NCBI GenBank assembly: GCA_037976565.1
Contig: CP137668.1
Coordinates: 31,296,264 to 31,360,263 of the forward strand
DNA: 64,000 nt
Source of the DNA: Mesocentrotus franciscanus
Taxonomy: Eukaryota > Echinodermata > Echinoidea > Camarodonta > Strongylocentrotidae
Direction: 5' to 3'
In this document: in pieces, positions 7,920 through 47,069 of the stretch
Layout: each line of letters starts with the position of its first letter
Position numbering within the stretch: position 1 is the stretch's first letter
Program-made: the position numbers and the translations under genes
Notes under the pieces: model-generated
Database searches by the model: none
Told to the model about the DNA's origin: nothing
The model's input: only the letters and a program-made list of their open reading frames with translations

Positions 7920-8257
7920 ATGGACTCCATAACGGTACAGTATGACGGGCTCCGGATAGCTAAACAAGATTCAACTGGAAAATCCAGAATGGATACATTG
8001 GATACCACCGACGACTATTTCTTAGAAGTCAAGCCTGAAAATCGCCACATCGAAGTGCACAATGATGTCGAAGACATGGAGGCTTCGTCGTCGAGTTCGG
8101 ATGACTCGATCACGAGCGGCAAGGAAATGTTGCATGGCAGAGAGAGTACGATGACGACGATGACGACGATGAAGACAACGACGATGACAACGGAGCAGGA
8201 AGAAGTGTCGTCGCAGACGTGTAATGTATCAAGCTCGAGAGCAGAATCATCAAACAG
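7920..8257 (+). CDS. Receptor coding exon 1: N-terminal A/B region
   Basis: It encodes residues 1-112 plus two bases of codon 113. The exon ends CAAACAG before GTAAATAC at 8258 (phase 2). The product is rich in acidic residues early on, followed by a serine run near residues 56-62 and a threonine/methionine-rich stretch near 77-90 made of ACG/ATG/ACA-type codons, which looks like expansion of a trinucleotide repeat. A/B regions of nuclear receptors are poorly conserved and often carry ligand-independent activation function; no specific motif is visible here. Confidence 0.85.
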
Positions 8258-11200
8258 GTAAATACATCAAAGGCGTATTCATGGTGGTGGTGTGTGTGTG
8301 TGTGTGTGTGGGGGGTATTTGAACAAATTCTGATAAGAAAGACGAAAAAAATGAATAAAGCTTGTTAGGTGTAACACTTGAAGGGGGGGGGGCACAATTA
8401 TTGGGGCACAGTGTATTGTGTACTTAAGATAATCCAGATTGGTTTTTAAAGGGGTTGTGGAGGGTACAAGCCGGTTGTGTCCTAAGTACTGATACCGATT
8501 TGCATTCTGCCAAAGTTTCTGAGTGCATTTTGCATCTATGCTGAGACAGATTTGATTCTGCTATTGCGGTTTATCACTTTGATTTCCGTTTTATATATCG
8601 CCACTGACCACGTGTGGTCATTGTTGTTTCGAAAATCATATAAGTCGAGGAAAGTTTCATTTTCGTTTCAAAATAGTGAATTTATCATATTACCAGTTTC
8701 ATTCAACGGAGAGAGATAAAGATAGATAGCGAGAGAGTGAGGGAGGGAGAGAGAGAGAGAAAAAAAAGGGGGAGAGAGAGAGAGAGAGAGAGAGGGGAAA
8801 GAAAGGGATTGTGCGTCATGTGTGAGTGTGTGTATGTGTATGAGAATGAGAAAGAAAAGATAGAGAGAGAGAGAGAGAGAGGGGGGAAGGGAGGGAAGGG
8901 AGAGAGCAATGGAGGTGAGAGAGAGAGAGAGAGAGAGAGAGGGGGGTATAGAGAATACAAGAAAGGTGAGTATTGAGAATGAAAGAGAGTAGAAATTAGA
9001 GAGAGTTGAAAATAGAAGAGACGTAGAAAGAGAAGAAATGAAGAGAGAGAGAGAGAGAGAGAGAGAAAGAAAGAGAGAGAGGTCAATTACTGAGCAAATA
9101 GGTAACCTAATTTGTAAACCACTCTGATTAAAAAACAGAAGCCGAAAGTACGTATAAAGGTAATGGAATATACAAATGCAACCATGGCAATGGTAAGATC
9201 ACCGTCATTACCGACCAATATTAATTAATCAAGACCATATTACCGAATCCATACCATTTTATAAACAGCACAGTAGAAATGGTAAAAAATGCCCCCCCCC
9301 CCTAGGGGCTTTAGATTTCCATTACTACCCAAATAATTTGAACAGAGCTACGAGCAGTAATATCTATGAGCAGTAAATTCATCTGAAGCAAATCCCAAAG
9401 GATTCAAATTCTTATAAAGATAGATAATTTTGAGCAACTTGATATTTTGAATTCAAATGAATCAAGCTTTCAATTGATTTCTTTCATTAACAAAACCCGA
9501 ATTACTGACCGTAATCAGGGAGGTGAGACTATCACCTCCCTGCCGTAATAGAGCTTGTTTGTGATTGTGCTCACCATTTCAATATCTCGTATTCTATTTC
9601 GTATTCTTTGTTTCCTTTATTGAAAAAGCTACATTTGTTTCCATTCCACTCTACAACACAGAGCTTCGTGCACATCCATCATTCGCTACACACACACGCA
9701 CACGCACACGCACGCGCACACACGCACACCAACACAACACACAATACACTCACACAACACACTCAAAAACTCATAAACACATTTTCATTTTGAATTTCAC
9801 CCTAAGATTTTTCTTTTGAGGCCGCGATCCTAGTCAAGCATCGCTAATGATTACGGTCTCCTGCACTTTTTCCACAAATTGTTCGGATAATAATTGAAAT
9901 TTATAATAATATGTTATAGAAATATTAAGTTTCGTTATTATATGTATATTATGTTAATAACATTTTGACATGCAGTTATCATTGTTTGTATATTTTGTAA
10001 TTTACCTTACGTTTATATGTTCTTTGTTATTCAGTTATTACATTTGGAAAAATGTAGAAATAAAATCAAAACAAAATTCGTTTATACTCCTTTTCCAATT
10101 CCAATAAGTATATAGCGTTTAGTGAAATATCCTCTTGTTCTTTTTCAGGGGAAGTGTCAGATGCAAGTTCAAGAAGGAGCCAGCTCTTACTAAGAGAGTA
10201 AAATGCAGCTCCACATGTGACGAAACAAAGACAACAGCATGCAGGAGAAAACCTAGAAAAGACAAACACAAAGGAGACGACCCCGTGTATTCAGGTACAG
10301 AATCAGTGATCCGACATTCGCTCTGACGACAATTGATCTAGGCTTTATTTGATAAAAAAATAAAGTGTTAGGGTTAGGATTGCAACTGGGTTTGAGCATA
10401 GGTTTGGTGGTAGGTTAGTGTTAAGTATGGCGTTAGGTCCATGGTTGAAGTTGCAGGAGAAATGTGTCGTGCAGCCACAGTAATTGCTTGAGACAGTTAA
10501 TGTATTTGTTATATCAAGGAGAGCACCGTGGTTTAGTGGTTCATTCGTTTGACTCTAAATAGAGAGGTTTGGGGTTAGAATCCTAGCTTGAACATTTGAG
10601 TGATATACCAAGCGAAACACAATGATATAGTGGTACACTCATTTGACTCTAAATCGAGACGTGTAGGGTTCGAATACCTAATAGAACCTTCGAGTGTTAT
10701 ATCAAGTGTAGTGGTCCATTCACTTTGACCTGAATTAATAGGTTTAGGGTGAGAACCTTTGCACGGAGCACCGTCCTGTCCTTAGACAAGTATTTATTAT
10801 ATACTCATTTCATAATTCTGTTCTATACAATTTGTATTACTATCCCCTTGATACAAGTATGATATCATCAAGACATTTCTCATATTTGTTTCACCTTATT
10901 ATGTTACTTGCAGAATTGAATGTGCCACTTTTCGTTTCAGTTATAATTTGTTAGAGCCCATCATGAACCCTTAAATCACCCTTTTGTCAATCAGTTTTCC
11001 ACAAAACACCCTGTCAAGAAAAACCTATATTGTAAACGCCTTATTCCGTAATCATAATGGCATATGTAGAAAGGTGTGGGGACGAATTTTTCATTCTACA
11101 TGTAAAACTTCACGTTGATAACATGGCGTTGCTATATATATATATCTGTAACAATTCTATAATGAATATTGGTAATCGCAAATATGAAGGTCCAAGGAAA

Positions 11201-14200
11201 TTCATGTCTTTAAACATAATAACCGCAGTGTATAGAAATTATGTTGATGGTGACTGTCCTTCGATTTTGTTTCCTCAGTTTTGATTACCTCGGTATATTT
11301 AAAAAAGTAGGTCTCTCCGTGATCATGGTAATAATAATGAGAGGTTATTGCAAGATATAAAACACATGTTTAGTACTGTTATCATCATATCTTGATCATG
11401 TATCAGTAGGTTTGCTTGCAATATGGTATCATGTCCATATGGCGATTGTCCTTCTATTTCGTTTCCGTATTCTTCGACTACCTCGGTAAATTAAAAAGTA
11501 GGTCGCTACGTGATCATGGTATTAATAAGGGGAGGTTCTTACGATAACCGAAACATAAGTTGAGTACTGTAATCATCACATTATCTTGATAAGGTATCAG
11601 TAGGTACTTGTACCTTATCTTGTTCATGTATCAGAAGGTTTGCTTTTAATTAGGCATCTTATATTATGTATGATATTGAAAGCTATTTTTGTAAGGAATA
11701 TTTGAACAGATGTGTGAAGTTCCAAGTTAGGTTTATATCCGTAGACAGTAATTTTTTTTTTTCAGAAATGAGTCGATAATTACCAACTTTTCTAAAAATT
11801 CTTGATAGGATTGTCTTTATGAAAATGACAACATATCTCTATCACACGGGCTCAATGAATGGACAAAAATACCGTGATGATATAATCATTCAAGAGACAA
11901 AATGAAATTAATAGTATTTCCATCACTAATGATGATTTTCTGGATAGGTTAATCATTTATGCAATTGTTTATTTTATTTTATGAAGCTTACAATTATATC
12001 ATATTTGAAACAGTGAAGATTTATTTAGTACTATTCCATCATTAGATATCATCAGATGTCAGATCTGTGGCGATAAAGCTTCTGGTATGCACTATGGTGT
12101 TTACTCGTGTGAAGGATGTAAGGTAAAGAACTTTAATATTTCAATTTGATCTGGGCCCTGTTTCATTAAAAAAGAAATCAATAACACTTATCAAAATTCA
12201 AAGGTGAATCCGCCCTCAGTCAACAAAATGCCGTTATATCAGTAGCTTATAACACATATCGTAACGTCTCTTATTGGGATGTTTTTTTAAATAAATAATT
12301 ACACGCAATACGAAGTTTATTTCATATTATCTACTTCAAATGAAAAACAAGGCAGAAAACCATCTTGTCTGTAAAAAAACAAAAATTGTCTGCAATAAAT
12401 GAACTTTGACAAAGTTTAAAATGTCAATTCGAAACAACCTGGAAACAAACCCCATTAATAATCAATGTCCACACCCAAGTACTTACAAGTCTTGTGTCCT
12501 CAGATAAATTCAATGCGTTGACCTCCTACAAATATTGATAAATATAAACCGTAAATTACCAATTGCTTCTTATCTTGATATCTGATTATATATCATAGGG
12601 ATTCTTTAGAAGAACCCAACGACTGAAGATTGATTATAAGCCTTGCCCATACTGGGGTCAACCTGACGGCTGCATCGTCAACATAGGTACAAGGAACAAG
12701 TGCCAGTACTGCAGATACCAAAAGTGTATTATACTTGGGATGTCCTCTACAGGTAGGTTACCAGGCACCAGGGAATTGTAAGAGAGTCCCTCGATCGTAG
12801 TTCACTTTCCAAAAGGCTTTATAGACAATAACAGAAATCACAAAATCACTGCTTTCTAATTTAGTTTTCGAATTTAATTTAATTTTTTATTTTTCATAGT
12901 TCAAACATGATATTCTTCCTATCATCGTGAAACGATATCCATCAATAAATTCATATCACATGGTCTCTTTTATAATTTCTAATATAAGTCACGTGCTGTG
13001 TTTTGTAACGTCTAATGATAATTGTGATCGTGCCGGGCAGCATACATAGCCTAGTCCAAGATGGATAATCTATATTTGTAAAATGCAAATGACTCTTTCA
13101 CGTTTACTTTCACTTTCAATGTCAATCAGCCGTTCGAATGGGACGAGTTCCAAAGGTCGAAGTCCTCAAACTTAAAGAAGAGCTGGACGAGAAGGACAGC
13201 GTCCTCCACGAAACCGAAGGCGAGAGATCGCATCGGGTCTTCGTCGACTCCCTAGCCAAGCAGTTCAATGACATAGTCTGTGCCCTGACGCAGGAGGACT
13301 TGGAGAAATTCTGGAAGCGATGCTCAAGGGTAACGTTACTGCCAATGGATCTGTCTGTCATCTTTGGAATAGTATCTATTTTGAAACTAAGAGAAAATAG
13401 AATAAAGTACTGTTGACATAATGTGATGTAAAATAAATATAATGAAATGAGCAGCCTCCCTTTGAGATGTTTAAGGAACATTTCATGCCATGTACAGGTA
13501 GGTCATCCCAGAAAAAAAAGAAAGAATGCAATTAAGAGAGATAGAAAGAATTAAAAAAAAAAACGAGAGAGAAAGGAAAAATAATAGATTTTCTTAATAC
13601 ATTGAATGTGAGGACTCAAATCCCACTATAATAGGCTTATTCATAATACTCATAAACAATAGGTCATTGTTTATTATCTACATTATCAAATACGAGTTGA
13701 TGACTTGATGGAATTGTTATAGTTAAAACTTTTTGATTTGCTCGGATATGAAATCAAGATTTCTAAAAGATACTGTGTAATAATCCTTATTTAATATTTC
13801 TGGAATAACTACGCACATTTATATAATTCCTTTGATTTGTTCTTTCGTACTCTAATTCGGTACATCTCAAATTTTCTCTTCTTGATATGATTTGCCACAT
13901 ATCTTTGATACACAATTTAATTTTAAGGTAATTTAAGTTATGTTTCTTTATAATTTATTAACCTTATCTACACTCACTTTTTGTATTATTAAATTATGCT
14001 TGGGCAATATAACAATATGAATGAATTTGAAATTTAAATTTGAAATTTATATTTGGAATATGTTTTCATTTGCTCGGTAATAATAATCTGACTCATGACA
14101 AATTATTATCATTATTATATCATTTCTTAATGACCGTTATTCAAATTCTAATTTTGTGTCTATGTTTTTATGTCTTATGTTTACGTTCGGCACCAGTCAG

Positions 14201-16505
14201 TGAGGAGAGCCTCTCGACAGGATTCTCAATCCTTTTAGGCAACCCACAGGCACTGGCTGGTACCCATTATCCTTTTCTCTGTATTGTTTATACTGATGTC
14301 TGTGTTACATTGCATTCTCCTGGATATTAAATAAATATTAAAAAACCTATAAAAAAAATTTTTTTTCATGGAGGAAGCATCCAAGAATGGAAAGCTGGCA
14401 TAATGGTAGAAATAGAAACGAATGGATTCTAACATATAAACAAATATTGAGTAATATTTTGAGTTGTCAATGTATCAAAGTAAAGTATTAAGGGTTTACA
14501 TTGCAGTCTAGTATCGAGGACTTATGTACATGTGCAATATGAAGCCTACGTAGAAACTCATACTTCACTCTCATGCACTTGTGTTTCCCGTCAGCCTTTC
14601 ACAGCCCACATGCCTTCGGGTACCTACGTCATCGAGGGGATGCAGCTAAACAAAGACGGTCCACCTCAGGAGATCACCAGCCGGGCCGAGATGGCCCAGC
14701 AGTGCTTCGTCAGCATGGAAGTCACCATCGAGAAGTTCGCTACCTTCGCCAAACAACTCCCCGAGTTCCGACGGCTCTCCTCTGCAGATCAACTGACGTT
14801 GTTTAAGGGTGCCGCCCTAGAGGTGTGTGCCACACTGAGTGCCAGCAGGTACTACCACGGCGTTTATAGGTAAGTCGTGATATTCCTGCTCTTCTGTAGT
14901 TCTGTACAATGTCACGGGCACAAATGTTTCAAAGGATGGAAGATTAATTTTCACAATTTTTCATTCAATAAACCTGCAAGGAAAACTGAAAATCTCAAAG
15001 ACTTCCGAGAAATCAACTCAGTAAGTAATTTCAATAGCCTCTTGTCTGTCCCATAAAAATCCCATTCGGTTTACGTGATGTTCGCGCATTTCGAAAGGTG
15101 ACGTACAAGGTCATTGAAATTGCATTTAATAGGTTGATTTTTCGAAAATAGTCGCGATCGTGTTAACTGTAAGGGGATGGGCTGAGCGGTGTCTCCAAAG
15201 TGCCCGTCCCGTCGGCATTACGCCAGATAAACCCCGTAAGGGATATGCTTGCGATTTGGTTTATTTAGGGTTACTTGGGGTTTAAAAGGCATTATTAGCA
15301 CCTCTTCCTCCAAAACATTTCAAAAGTGTAAAGGAGGAAAAGCAGCGACGGGGGAAATAACTATAGCAATAATACGACTCCACCCATATTTCTTACACAT
15401 ACTCCTGAACCTGCTGTGGCAAGAAATCTAGCTTAGTCTTCGTCAGTCAACAACCCGTCTGCACAAACCCCAGGACAACCATCTGACATCTTCGTTTGTG
15501 AGAAGAAAGGCCAATGGATAAAATGACGAAAATTGATCGCTTTTCATATCTTTCAGGTTCCCGGAAATTAACACCTACATTCGAAGAGACGTGGCGGAGA
15601 ATTCGCCGTTCGGGAAGGTGACCACTTACACGACCGAGATGATGTTTTATGAGATGTTCAACGAGCTAGGCTTGTCGGACAAGGAGAAGGCCATTTTCTG
15701 TACCTTCCTCCTATACTCACCAGGTAGACGGTTTCTTGTCTTCTTATTCAGCGTCGCCGATTCCCCCTTGAGATGGGAGAAAGGGGAACAAGTTCGGCTG
15801 AAACATAATTAAGACACACTGTTTATTAACCTGTCTGTCGAGGCAGTTTAAGTTATAAATTTGTGAGAAACCATTAAGATGTTACATCTTTTAGACTTGA
15901 TAAATTATGATATTGCGAATCTTCTATTAACAGGTCGGTTAACGGATGCCATGTCATACCTTAGGAACACTCCCATAGGTTATGTACAACATTGTTCTAA
16001 ATTGAAAGTGTCACTGTTAATGTGAGAGCATGTTTCTAATGATACATGAGAAATAAATCACAGTTAATGTATATTGCCTTAAAAAACAGTATTTTCCTAA
16101 TTGTGATGTCCTGTCAGAATATGTCTCAACGAGTTAATATTTTCTAATAAACAGAGGGGCATTTGTTTTACAGATCGGGAAGGTCTAGTGGACCGAGAGG
16201 TTGTAGAGCGTCACCAGGAGCACCTAGCACAAACTCTGTACCTGGAGGTGAAGAAGAACAATCCGGACCGGAGCAACCTCTACGCCAAGCTGATGGACGT
16301 AGCTGTGGCCCTTCGCTCCTTGGTACCTGACCATTTGGAGCGGTTGGAGCAGATCAAGATGCGATGCAACGGCCACCTGCCAGCCGAACCTAGTCCACTG
16401 CTCAACGAGGTGTATGGGAGTATAGTATGGCTACAGACGGACGAGCAGACGACGCCGAACGCGCCAGAAATGGCGGGAGCTGGCGAATCTACGATGCCCA
16501 CGTGA
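7920..16505 (+). CDS. Nuclear hormone receptor, NR1-type, eight coding exons (span)
   Basis: This is a ligand-regulated transcription factor that would act in the nucleus. Coding exons are 7920-8257, 10149-10294, 12046-12122, 12599-12752, 13130-13329, 14595-14869, 15557-15723 and 16174-16505; the sum is 1689 bases, or 562 residues plus TGA. Every intron is GT-AG and every phase fits. Residues 1-165 are a low-complexity A/B region. Residues 166-235 are a C4 DNA-binding domain with P-box CEGCK, as in NR1 receptors. Residues about 236-305 are a hinge. The ligand-binding domain holds the helix 3-5 signature FAKQLPEF...DQLTLFK (356-376), a helix 8-9 SPDREGL (451-457) and AF-2 core LLNEVY (528-533). 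From family knowledge, the CTE GRVPK and RNKCQYCR resemble PPAR/E75/E78-type receptors. The D-box loop is unusually long. I do not recognise a specific orthologue; an echinoderm-specific NR1 branch is possible. Confidence 0.93.
8701..9081 (+). repeat. GA-rich compound microsatellite in receptor intron 1
   Basis: Nearly all purine on the plus strand, with several AG arrays (for example 8772-8794, 8920-8941, 9042-9081) separated by GGGA-rich and GTGTGT segments. The 127-residue minus-strand and 79-residue plus-strand open frames here are low-complexity artefacts. Confidence 0.95.
9516..9542. repeat. Short perfect hairpin (11-bp stem)
   Basis: CAGGGAGGTGA at 9516-9526 pairs with TCACCTCCCTG at 9532-9542 around a 5-base loop. 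Flanking copies of CCGTAAT extend the symmetry loosely. It is probably the core of a decayed foldback element. Confidence 0.6.
9686..9745 (+). repeat. CA/GC-rich dinucleotide tract
   Basis: An imperfect CA microsatellite with CG interruptions (ACACGCACACGC type), followed by AACAC-rich sequence. Confidence 0.8.
10149..10294 (+). CDS. Receptor coding exon 2: basic A/B segment
   Basis: The acceptor CTTTTTCAG ends at 10148 and the donor GTACAG begins at 10295. The first base completes an AGG (Arg113) codon, giving the continuous reading [15 protein letters not shown]. The segment is strongly basic ([10 protein letters not shown] near residues 145-154) and contains several cysteines, but no zinc-finger spacing. 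It could serve as a nuclear localisation signal, which is inference. It leaves phase 1 for exon 3. Confidence 0.8.
10526..10800 (+). mobile_element. Three decayed tRNA-like SINE heads in tandem
   Basis: Three successive segments (about 10526-10594, 10621-10687, 10703-10766) each read TAGTGGT(T/A/C)CA followed by TTTGACT-type sequence and a degenerate B box (GGGGTTAGAATCC, GGGTTCGAATACC, GGGTGAGAACC). They resemble the SINE heads at 45432 and 20923. The last is followed by GTCCTTAGACAAG, similar to the SINE body motif GTCCTTTGGCAAG at 44541. Confidence 0.6.
11248..11650 (+). repeat. Diverged two-copy tandem duplication, about 193-bp period
   Basis: The block around ACTGTCCTTCGATTTTGTTTC, ACCTCGG, AAAGTAGGTC, GTGATCATGGTA and TATCAGTAGG recurs 193 bases later with substitutions and small indels (compare CCTCGG at 11288 and 11481). 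No coding frame is preserved. Confidence 0.75.
12046..12122 (+). CDS. Receptor coding exon 3: first zinc finger of the DNA-binding domain
   Basis: It encodes DIIR followed by the first C4 finger: C166, C169, C183 and C186, ending CEGCK. The acceptor is CATTAG at 12040-12045; G from exon 2 plus AT gives GAT (Asp162). The donor GTAAAG starts at 12123 in phase 0, immediately after the P-box lysine, which is a classical intron position between the two fingers of nuclear receptors. The P-box residues E, G and K predict recognition of AGGTCA-type half sites. Confidence 0.95.
12123..12598 (+). other. Receptor intron 3
   Basis: 476-base GT-AG intron between the two zinc-finger exons. A GGGCCCTGTTTCATTAAA motif at 12153-12170 resembles one end of the MITE at 18142, but no partner end is seen. 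Nothing else was recognised. Confidence 0.8.
12599..12752 (+). CDS. Receptor coding exon 4: second zinc finger, with extended D-box
   Basis: It begins GFFRRT and contains the second finger cysteines C203, C212, C222, C225 and C230. Between C203 and C212 lie eight residues (PYWGQPDG), where most nuclear receptors have five and PPARs three. The X9, X2 and X4 spacings that follow are normal. The exon ends at GMSST, and the donor GTAGGT starts at 12753 (phase 1). The D-box normally forms the dimer interface on DNA, so a longer loop may alter half-site spacing or partner choice; that functional reading is inference. Confidence 0.94.
12753..13129 (+). other. Receptor intron 4
   Basis: 377-base GT-AG intron, AT-rich; no repeat or motif recognised. 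Confidence 0.85.
13130..13329 (+). CDS. Receptor coding exon 5: C-terminal extension, hinge and start of LBD
   Basis: The acceptor AATCAG ends at 13129; G plus CC gives Ala239, then VRMGRVPK, the T/A-box region that follows the fingers in PPAR/E78-like receptors. It continues through a charged, helix-prone segment ([12 protein letters not shown]) to [12 protein letters not shown] at residue 305. The donor GTAACG begins at 13330 in phase 0. The ATG at 13138 lies inside the exon and is not the gene start. Confidence 0.92.
13330..14594 (+). other. Receptor intron 5
   Basis: 1265-base GT-AG intron. AT-rich, with short A-rich and GA-rich runs near 13515-13575; no element recognised. Confidence 0.85.
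14595..14869 (+). CDS. Receptor coding exon 6: LBD helices 3-5 signature
   Basis: It encodes residues 306-396 plus two bases. The acceptor TTTCCCGTCAG ends at 14594 and the donor GTAAGT starts at 14870. It carries the nuclear-receptor LBD signature: [14 protein letters not shown] at about 350-363, then [11 protein letters not shown] at 366-376, matching the helix 3-4 charge clamp and co-regulator groove of the family. GC content and codon use are clearly higher than in the flanking AT-rich introns, as expected of coding DNA here. Confidence 0.95.
14870..15556 (+). other. Receptor intron 6
   Basis: 687-base GT-AG intron with no recognised repeat. Confidence 0.85.
15557..15723 (+). CDS. Receptor coding exon 7: LBD helices 6-8
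   Basis: The acceptor ATCTTTCAG ends at 15556; AG from exon 6 plus G gives Arg397. It reads [14 protein letters not shown] and continues to [19 protein letters not shown] and LLYSP, a typical mid-LBD arrangement. The donor GTAGAC starts at 15724 in phase 1. Reading past the donor would replace the C-terminal half of the LBD with a short unrelated tail, so the splice is needed for an intact domain. Confidence 0.93.
15724..16173 (+). other. Receptor intron 7
   Basis: 450-base GT-AG intron; nothing recognised beyond AT-rich sequence. Confidence 0.85.
16174..16505 (+). CDS. Receptor coding exon 8: LBD helices 9-12, AF-2 and stop
   Basis: The acceptor TTTGTTTTACAG ends at 16173; G plus AT gives Asp453, joining SP to DREGL, a junction conserved in NR1 receptors. 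It runs through helices 9-11 to [10 protein letters not shown], an AF-2 helix 12 that keeps the glutamate needed for the co-activator charge clamp (hydrophobic pair, x, E, hydrophobic pair). A 29-residue F-like tail follows, ending at TGA 16503-16505. The intact AF-2 argues for a receptor able to recruit co-activators rather than a constitutive repressor. Confidence 0.95.
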
Positions 16506-23144: not shown

Positions 23145-23229
23145 AGAACGCACACTGGAGAGAAAGCTTTCAAGTGCAAACATTGTGAGAATATATTCAA
23201 CTCATCTGGTAACTTAACCAAACACATGA
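23145..23229 (+). pseudogene. Captured C2H2 zinc-finger fragment
   Basis: The plus-strand frame reads RTHTGEKAFKCKHCE, then NIFNSSGNLTKHMI. That is a TGEK-type linker, C-X2-C, the phenylalanine, the hydrophobic leucine and the first histidine at the correct C-X12-H spacing. The second histidine is absent because the sequence diverges after HMI. It lies within a TIR element and is preceded by an A-rich run, so it is a transduced exon fragment, not a gene. Confidence 0.8.
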
Positions 23230-23244
23230 TAACTCTGGATATAA

Positions 23245-23278
23245 CAAGTAACAGTTTAATATATTAAACTGTTACTTG
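23245..23278. repeat. 34-bp perfect palindrome
   Basis: CAAGTAACAGTTTAATA followed directly by its exact reverse complement. The repeat of AAACTGTTACTTGATTT at 23440 shows the right arm is also the start of the 174-bp tandem unit. Confidence 0.95.
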
Positions 23279-23614
23279 ATTTAAAAAGACGTTATCATGC
23301 ACTGCTTTTTATGATCTCCATTGTGTTAGTAGATGCCAGGAAAACGTCACTTACGGGCCGGGGGATTAAAAATAGCACCAAAAAAAATCGCCTCGCCGCT
23401 ATGCGGCTCGTGGACGATGCTCCGCATCGTTATTGAGTCAAACTGTTACTTGATTTCAAAAGACGTTATCATGCACTGCTTTTTATGGTCTCCATTGTGT
23501 TAGTAGATGCCAGGAAAACATCACTTTTACAAGGGGGTTCAAAATAGCAACAAACAAAAAAAAAATCGCCTCGTCGCTTCGCGGCTCGTGGACGATGCTC
23601 CTCATCGTCATCTT
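23266..23614 (+). repeat. Two-copy tandem repeat, 174-bp period
   Basis: Copies at 23266-23439 and 23440-23614 share AAACTGTTACTTGATTT, GACGTTATCATGCACTGC, TAGTAGATGCCAGGAAAAC and CGGCTCGTGGACGATGCTCC with few differences. Each copy ends in a small CGAGCC/GGCTCG hairpin-rich segment. Confidence 0.9.
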
Positions 23615-45431: not shown

Positions 45432-45600
45432 GGTGTTGTGGTATAGTGGTTCATTCACATGACTCTCAATCCAAGGGTTGTGGGTTCGAATCCCAGCCCG
45501 ACATTACCATCGTTTGACAAGATCCACATTGGCCACTCTCCAATCAGGTGTAGATGGGTGCCTATCAATTGACGGGGGTAATAATAATAATAATTGCAGG
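45432..45600 (+). mobile_element. tRNA-derived SINE, 5' part
   Basis: Head GTTGTGGTATAGTGGTTCAT (A box) and GGGTTCGAATCCCAGCCCG (B box, 45482-45500), then GACAAGATCCACATTGGCCA and CAGGTGTAGATGGGTGCC. The canonical 3' end is lost in ATAATAATAATTG, about 170 bases before the long ATT array at 45775. Confidence 0.85.
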
Positions 45601-45664
45601 GCTCTCAGGAGGTACAGTATTGGTGTTGATGTGGCTTCCCTGGGTCATTATTCTTTTTATTTGA

Positions 45665-45917
<253 letters not shown>

Positions 45918-47069
45918 CGGTAGCCTTGTTCATTTCATTCGTCGAGTAAGACCCATGCCGCCCCCTCCTTATACCGGTGCCCCTTCAAAGGTTGGAATCA
46001 CGCTACACCTCTAAGATGAAACACTGTATCCTCTACCAGCCTTTTAGACACTTGACAGAGATGGGAAAATGCATTTAATGAATTGTGAACGTTTCTTCAG
46101 CTTTTCAATCGCCTATTTTCGCGGGTTGATGATCTCGTAGATAGTGCATGCCGGGAACGATCGCGTCCGTGCTCGTCTGATACAACAGACCGCTAAAATG
46201 GGGAAGGTGGTATGACATTTAATTGATCTTAATTTCCTTATTGTAAATATTATATAGGCGTGCATAAGATTTAAAAAAAACAATGAAAAGAAAAGGACTA
46301 ACGGAAAGAACCTTACTCTCGTGAAAACAAATACGAAATTTTAAGAAGAAGAGAGAAAGAGAATAATAGTGCGTTACTCAATCAAAATTCCTCATTGCTG
46401 CCATCCATTTAAAATTGGAGCGACACGTCACCATTATCTCTCATTCTATACTACGTCAAACCTTTTGTGACAATGCCACAAATTGACATTTCCAAACGAG
46501 TATTTCTGCATTAATATGCCATTATTAAACCATTAATATTCAATCATGGTTGAACTGGAAATAGAACCCGAAATGCTTCCGTGAATACAGGTATACGTAA
46601 ATATTTTAATGGGGTGAGAGGGGTAGTCTATATATTGCCTTAGTCGACTCGAAATAGTGTGTTACATTCAATTAAATGTGATTAATTGGTTGAGAAAACG
46701 AATATATCAGTAGAACAAGAGCACTAAAAATCATCTCATAAAAAGGATGCAGCCTTTCAGTTGAAAGTCCATAGTTCATTTACTTCCACACATGTCATCT
46801 CTTTTTCTATAACATAACAAAAATATTCACGTTAAGAGCATAATTAAATTACCCACAAATTGATATGGCAAATATCTTCTAAAATACGTTATATACTGTT
46901 TACGATGGTCATAGAAGAAAACAAGATGAAACTTATCCATGATAACAAGTAGTAGAATTGACCAAACATACTTGTTATTTGAAATATAAGAGAAATTTAA
47001 AGTAATCTAGACATGGGAAACACAGGTGGAGGGTATCGGGAAAAGGATAAGTTGTATTTTATAGTTCCT
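45918..47069. other. Intergenic sequence, no gene recognised
   Basis: Mixed; no element delimited. Confidence 0.5.

Follow-up and report, generated by a model that had tools for sequence, protein, structure and literature searches.

The window, the whole stretch of 64,000 nucleotides of Mesocentrotus franciscanus DNA that was analysed (contig CP137668.1, positions 31,296,264 to 31,360,263), holds on its forward strand a gene that, judged from its sequence, is a PPAR (NR1C) paralogue and that was named PPAR2 in this analysis. The coding part of PPAR2 runs from window position 7920 to 16505 (+) as eight exons, spread across about 8.6 kb, which join in frame to encode 562 amino acids, with GT/AG borders at all seven introns. 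The features are listed below with the basis of each assignment in brackets, P0001 being an echinoid PPAR2 orthologue and P0002 a protein of Lytechinus pictus.

7920..8257, +, exon 1 (coding); N-terminal A/B domain (first in-frame ATG after a stop; conserved with P0001 and P0002)
10149..10294, +, exon 2; A/B domain (exon join, 24-row alignment)
12046..12122, +, exon 3; first zinc finger with C166, C169, C183 and C186 (exon join)
12108-12122, +, P-box CEGCK, residues 183-187, in exon 3 (sequence)
12599..12752, +, exon 4; second zinc finger and start of the T-box (exon join)
12644..12673, +, C203 to C212, extended D-box, in exon 4 (C203 at 12644-12646, C212 at 12671-12673)
12647-12670, +, the eight loop residues PYWGQPDG (exon 4 codons)
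13130..13329, +, exon 5; remaining T-box/C-terminal extension and hinge (exon join)
14595..14869, +, exon 6; end of the hinge and first part of the ligand-binding domain (exon join, Pfam, alignment)
15557..15723, +, exon 7; ligand-binding domain (exon join)
16174..16505, +, exon 8; end of the ligand-binding domain, AF-2, C-terminal tail and stop (exon join, alignment)
16398-16415, +, AF-2 motif LLNEVY, residues 528-533, in exon 8 (sequence)

Pfam analysis detected zf-C4 (PF00105) at 88.1 bits and Hormone_recep (PF00104) at 63.9 bits, both above the curated cut-offs, and these two domains together with all eight finger cysteines place PPAR2 in the nuclear receptor superfamily. An earlier sequence-only reading of this DNA had described eight residues between the first two cysteines of the second finger, with otherwise normal spacing, in a protein with both fingers and the AF-2 intact. 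This description was confirmed: PYWGQPDG between C203 and C212 is encoded exactly at 12644-12673; the second finger reads C203-x8-C212-x9-C222-x2-C225, the odd spacing being limited to C203-x8-C212; the ligands C166, C169, C183, C186, C203, C212, C222 and C225 are all present; and LLNEVY is found at residues 528-533. With the fingers and AF-2 whole, the protein looks functional, as had been proposed. It extends beyond the AF-2 by a tail of 28 residues (535-562, window 16419-16502), of which 26 of 28 are common with P0001 and 12 of 27 with Lytechinus pictus, and which the remaining rows of the 24-row alignment lack or have in a much shorter form.

The assignment to NR1 made in the same reading was borne out by search and trees, and it can be narrowed to the PPARs (NR1C). 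PPARs top the full-length protein search (best 120 of 2376 matches listed), in which the named matches follow in the order Lytechinus pictus, Diadema, sea stars, brittle star and crinoids, and then a second echinoderm set, hemichordates, amphioxus and vertebrates, all of them labelled PPAR-like. The P-box CEGCK is that of a PPAR, and so is the AF-2, where a helix is present at 523-529 in the AlphaFold model of P0001. The 24-row PPAR alignment shows no variation at the P-box, R219-N220-K221-C222, C225 and R226, or in parts of the T-box region. The D-box, with eight residues, departs from the three residues used to recognise a PPAR; this short form appears to mark chordate PPARs and not the whole family, because the mollusc and ambulacrarian PPARs listed also lack it. 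The best solved structure by sequence in the PDB search was PPAR-gamma 3dzu_D (E 3.4e-56). A fold search with the P0001 model gave as top match 3dzy_D, which is PPAR-gamma in the structure of the intact PPAR-gamma/RXR complex bound to DNA, with an rmsd of 13.9, a large value that is possibly due to free placement of the domains in a single-chain model. In this model, pLDDT averaged by block is 88-96 for residues 161-230 and 88 for the block (201-210) in which most of the loop falls, and the DNA-binding domain (DBD) of P0001, identical to that of the window, is predicted to fold well. NR1M was considered as a group name for sea urchin receptors of this kind and dropped, as PMC2774871 (a Daphnia receptor) and a table row of PMC7827873 use it for HR10.

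Comparison with individual relatives indicated how closely the loop is shared. P0001 has 91% identity over 100% of the window protein, the same domain layout and the loop PYWGQPDG; P0002 of Lytechinus pictus, labelled "PPAR gamma-like", has 80% identity over 99%, again with this layout and PYWGQPDG; and P0003 of Diadema antillarum, labelled "PPAR delta-like", has 70% identity over 70% and the loop PYWGQDDG, in which one residue is changed. For P0001, P0002 and P0003, respectively, identity to the window was 8/8, 8/8 and 7/8 in the loop and 83/83, 79/83 and 74/83 in the whole DBD, whereas the N terminus and the C-terminal tail diverge among these orthologues. The PPAR2 proteins of sea stars, brittle star and crinoids (P0004-P0009) fall in the same clade as the window protein and share its P-box and the pattern of its second finger after the loop, but they have a loop of seven residues (four in Amphiura) and no comparable C-terminal tail, and just 67-76 of 192-197 positions of the ligand-binding domain (LBD) are common with the window. 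Ambulacrarian PPAR1 (Lytechinus variegatus P0014, Apostichopus P0013, Saccoglossus P0016 and others) is likewise a PPAR with an extended loop starting CPY or CPF, but the loop has seven residues, as in CPYVKTEPC, and the trees place it as a separate paralogue. Vertebrate PPAR alpha, gamma and delta (NR1C1-3), which include the best solved-structure match, resemble the window protein in P-box, T-box region and LBD fold and differ from it in their three-residue D-box, PPAR gamma P0024 matching the window protein at 34% identity across 66% of the latter. Mollusc PPARs share the PPAR-type DBD but have a five-residue D-box in those listed.

The sequence-only reading had also raised the chance that another splice site in exon 4 takes out the extra residues, and the sequence argues against this. 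There is no AG within the loop codons of exon 4. Leaving GC donors aside, every in-frame GT..AG pair that touches the loop is 30 or 96 nt long, and its removal would delete a zinc ligand. Furthermore, the occurrence of the same eight residues in P0001 and P0002, and of seven of the eight in P0003, makes a frame or splice error unlikely. The contigs that carry P0001 measure no more than 2764 nt and contain its complete frame of 558 aa; the source tag of P0001, "lgn", we take to denote assemblies of sequencing runs. Because the coding exons here span about 8.6 kb with seven introns, contigs of that size suggest that P0001 represents a spliced transcript; they are too short for the unspliced gene and carry an identical DBD, and the PPAR2 loop is therefore probably expressed. 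A splice or frame artefact is thus very unlikely, given the conserved loop and the lack of any GT..AG option in exon 4 that keeps the finger.

The loop had been called longer than usual against five residues in most nuclear receptors and three in PPARs. Three protein searches, with the best 120 of 2376, 2759 and 771 passing matches taken, gave 260 distinct proteins. By the length of the loop in the first domain these divide into 188 with three residues, 48 with five, 20 with seven, 3 with eight and 1 with four; the sample is dominated by vertebrates and is hence not a census of receptors. The eight residues of PPAR2 are indeed long beside the three or five of most of these 260 relatives, the five-residue class being a mixture of ROR, NR1D, RXR and, from molluscs, PPAR and E75-like proteins. 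All three eights among the 260 are the echinoid orthologues P0001, Lytechinus pictus and Diadema. Ambulacrarian PPARs make up 19 of the 20 proteins with seven, P0012 being counted on its tree position and P0122 included together with P0013, which it overlaps; the remaining seven belongs to P0160, an E75-like protein of Mytilus. Among the ambulacrarian PPARs listed, the loop is therefore of seven residues in 19/23, eight in 3/23 and four in 1/23; in the trees, a three-residue loop characterises the PPARs of vertebrates, amphioxus and Ciona and a five-residue one those of molluscs. The value of three for PPARs thus stood for the chordate PPARs listed and failed for the mollusc (five) and ambulacrarian (mostly seven) ones. 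In the review PMC3832966, five residues are ascribed to almost all nuclear receptors except PPARs, and the three-residue D-box is named as the PPAR hallmark that sets them apart.

The earlier reading had further taken many known receptors with the same spacing as grounds for giving up its claim. Spacing of about seven residues is common in this sense (19/23 ambulacrarian PPARs listed), and spacing of exactly eight is confined to three orthologues among the 260 proteins listed. As seven is the rule among the ambulacrarian PPARs listed, the novelty of PPAR2 relative to its own kin is one residue. An isolated oddity was ruled out by the eights in three orthologues and the sevens in 19 ambulacrarian PPARs among the 260 listed, and on this comparison of sequences the extended loop is a lineage trait, not a one-off.

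Two exceptions to the common lengths were observed. The lone four among the 260 is the PPAR2 of the brittle star Amphiura filiformis (P0007), in which this stretch reads CPANPC, indicating that loop length is not fixed. P0160 of Mytilus californianus, which groups with E75-like rows, has the seven-residue loop CANGDKKGC, apparently a separate expansion. The E75-like rows with the loop ENPNG or DNPKG group with Diadema NR1D2 in the 39-row tree with loop columns kept, and PMC5398557 calls an oyster receptor with ENPKG a PPAR; whether counted as E75-like or as PPAR, these rows have five residues (seven in P0160).

To place the loop lengths on a phylogeny, trees were built on the sequence from the DBD onwards. 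The 39 rows were our own choice and comprised the window and 38 of 211 collected proteins, P0122 (overlapping P0013) being in no tree. Six of the 39 were left out of a 33-row tree (P0124, P0199, P0161, P0183, P0160 and P0126) and five out of a 34-row tree (P0124, P0199, P0161, P0183 and P0160), in which the long-branched Ptychodera P0126 was put back. The 33-row tree, with loop columns removed, united 22 ambulacrarian PPARs in one clade (100/98), with the window inside the echinoderm PPAR2 clade (100/100), and the five length states required four changes, which is the minimum, so that each length arises once. With P0126 included and loop columns removed, the ambulacrarian clade was supported at 99/98.6, the echinoderm PPAR2 clade containing the window, crinoids, stars and brittle star at 99/99, and four changes were again obtained. 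The 39-row trees, which include ROR, NR1D2 and mollusc E75-like rows, did not recover the ambulacrarian clade with loop columns either kept or removed; the clade, when constrained with loop columns removed, was not rejected (p-AU 0.314). In the 39-row tree without loop columns, loop-length changes rose to six, the added rows including the Mytilus E75-like protein with seven. With far outgroups added, these trees do not fix the deep order among PPAR groups, and the ambulacrarian clade is firm only without them.

P0126, a divergent hemichordate PPAR of Ptychodera flava, was placed as sister to echinoderm PPAR2 (95/93). This position would put the PPAR1/PPAR2 duplication before the split of echinoderms and hemichordates, a tentative dating that depends on a long branch.

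Most likely, the loop expanded in the ambulacrarian ancestor and gained one more residue in echinoids. The simplest reading of the lengths assigns seven to the ambulacrarian ancestor, eight to echinoid PPAR2, three to chordates and five to molluscs; an ancestral PPAR loop of five is a guess.

The published background on pairing is divided. On DR1, PPAR lies at the 5' side and RXR at the 3' side (PMC11521896). Human PPAR and RXR are stated to pair via the T-box only, to the exclusion of the D-box, so that the oyster PPAR could still pair with its D-box of another length (PMC5398557), whereas PMC3774650 describes a contact of the RXR T-box with a zinc finger of its partner, which serves pairing with RXR downstream on DR1 and by which the PPAR second finger may be part of the contact surface. 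These papers thus disagree on whether the D-box loop is at the PPAR/RXR contact. In HNF4 on DR1, the T-box is set against the second finger (PMC10315846), and by analogy the second finger of PPAR would face RXR and a longer loop could touch it. The review PMC3832966, citing Okuno 2001, credits the three-residue loop of PPAR-gamma for dual binding, including homodimers on the palindrome Pal3, and another review (PMC7827873) records a Paracentrotus lividus PPAR/RXR heterodimer that is active in cells, the PPAR paralogue not being stated.

The P-box, the RNKCQYCR that follows the loop and the T-box region of PPAR2 all keep to the PPAR pattern. RXR is accordingly its most likely partner, on DR1 sites where PPAR2 would occupy the 5' half-site. 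As a whole, the gene is probably best explained as an echinoderm PPAR2 whose loop has grown from seven to eight residues and which works as an RXR heterodimer on DR1-like elements that tolerate the longer loop. A loop of about five residues, such as mollusc PPARs have, was perhaps the starting point; it would have reached seven in the ambulacrarian ancestor and eight in the echinoid PPAR2 line, against three in chordate PPARs. At most, the longer loop may alter the second-finger surface facing RXR and the capacity for palindromic homodimers. A change of partner for reasons apart from the loop could also have occurred, as the LBD is so divergent from those of the non-echinoid PPAR2s.

It is also conceivable, though on the unlikely side, that loop length drifts neutrally, with the loop facing solvent and taking no part in pairing. 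PPARs with both domains have loops of 3, 4, 5, 7 or 8 residues, one Mytilus E75-like protein also has seven, and the loop residues vary by echinoderm class, only 0-3 of 4 to 7 being common with star, brittle-star and crinoid PPAR2. However, the loop is conserved about as well as the remaining DBD among the four echinoid-type sequences (window, P0001, Lytechinus pictus and Diadema), and the start CP[YF] recurs across many ambulacrarian PPARs.

The sequence-only reading had suggested an unusual partner or half-site spacing, and an effect of the loop on pairing is plausible. The specific proposal that the extended loop changes dimerisation, such that homodimer binding to palindromes or the preferred half-site spacing in ambulacrarian PPARs, above all in PPAR2, departs from that of vertebrate PPARs, is rather doubtful. 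The retention of 8, 8 and 7 of the eight residues in P0001, P0002 and P0003 agrees with it, as do the dual binding tied to the short D-box (PMC3832966) and the contact of the RXR T-box with its partner's finger (PMC3774650); the exclusion of the D-box from PPAR/RXR pairing (PMC5398557) and the active urchin heterodimer, of whichever paralogue (PMC7827873), speak against it. A still bolder form, in which the expansion rewired ambulacrarian PPAR pairing, the PPAR2 loop making a new contact with RXR or with itself at a spacing or with a partner unused by vertebrate PPARs, and the three residues of chordates being a derived shortening that opened palindromic homodimers, would be more speculative again and improbable. 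Finally, although the gene model of PPAR2 is conceptual, an artefact of that model or of splicing, or a dead gene, is scarcely credible beside the complete frame of P0001 on its short contigs and the breakage of the finger by every GT..AG option touching the loop inside exon 4.

The loop takes five lengths within PPARs, each of which, without far outgroups, arises once and tracks phylogeny. The lengths 3, 4, 5, 7 and 8 provide a natural series for testing the role of the loop in PPAR pairing, and they advise caution in applying vertebrate PPAR binding rules to echinoderms. Work by Capitao, dated 2020, reportedly concerns echinoderm PPAR. In the accessible sections of the open-licence literature, we found no report of D-box length in echinoderm or hemichordate PPARs, which is not proof of its being unpublished; ppar genes are reported from each echinoderm class in PMC8834484.

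Elsewhere in the window, 10 of the 37 listed stop-to-stop frames were searched against Pfam without a match, three other frames being parts of the PPAR2 gene. Long GAA/AAG-rich and other simple-repeat tracts at 603-850 and about 45600-45950 give rise to spurious long reading frames. A single C2H2 zinc-finger fragment (HTGEKAFKCKHCENIFNSSGNLTKHM) can be read in one frame at 23151-23228, directly ahead of a repeat at 23266-23611, in which an 87-nt unit (97% identity) and a 54-nt unit (91%) recur 174 and 178 nt apart and which looks like a duplicated repeat element.
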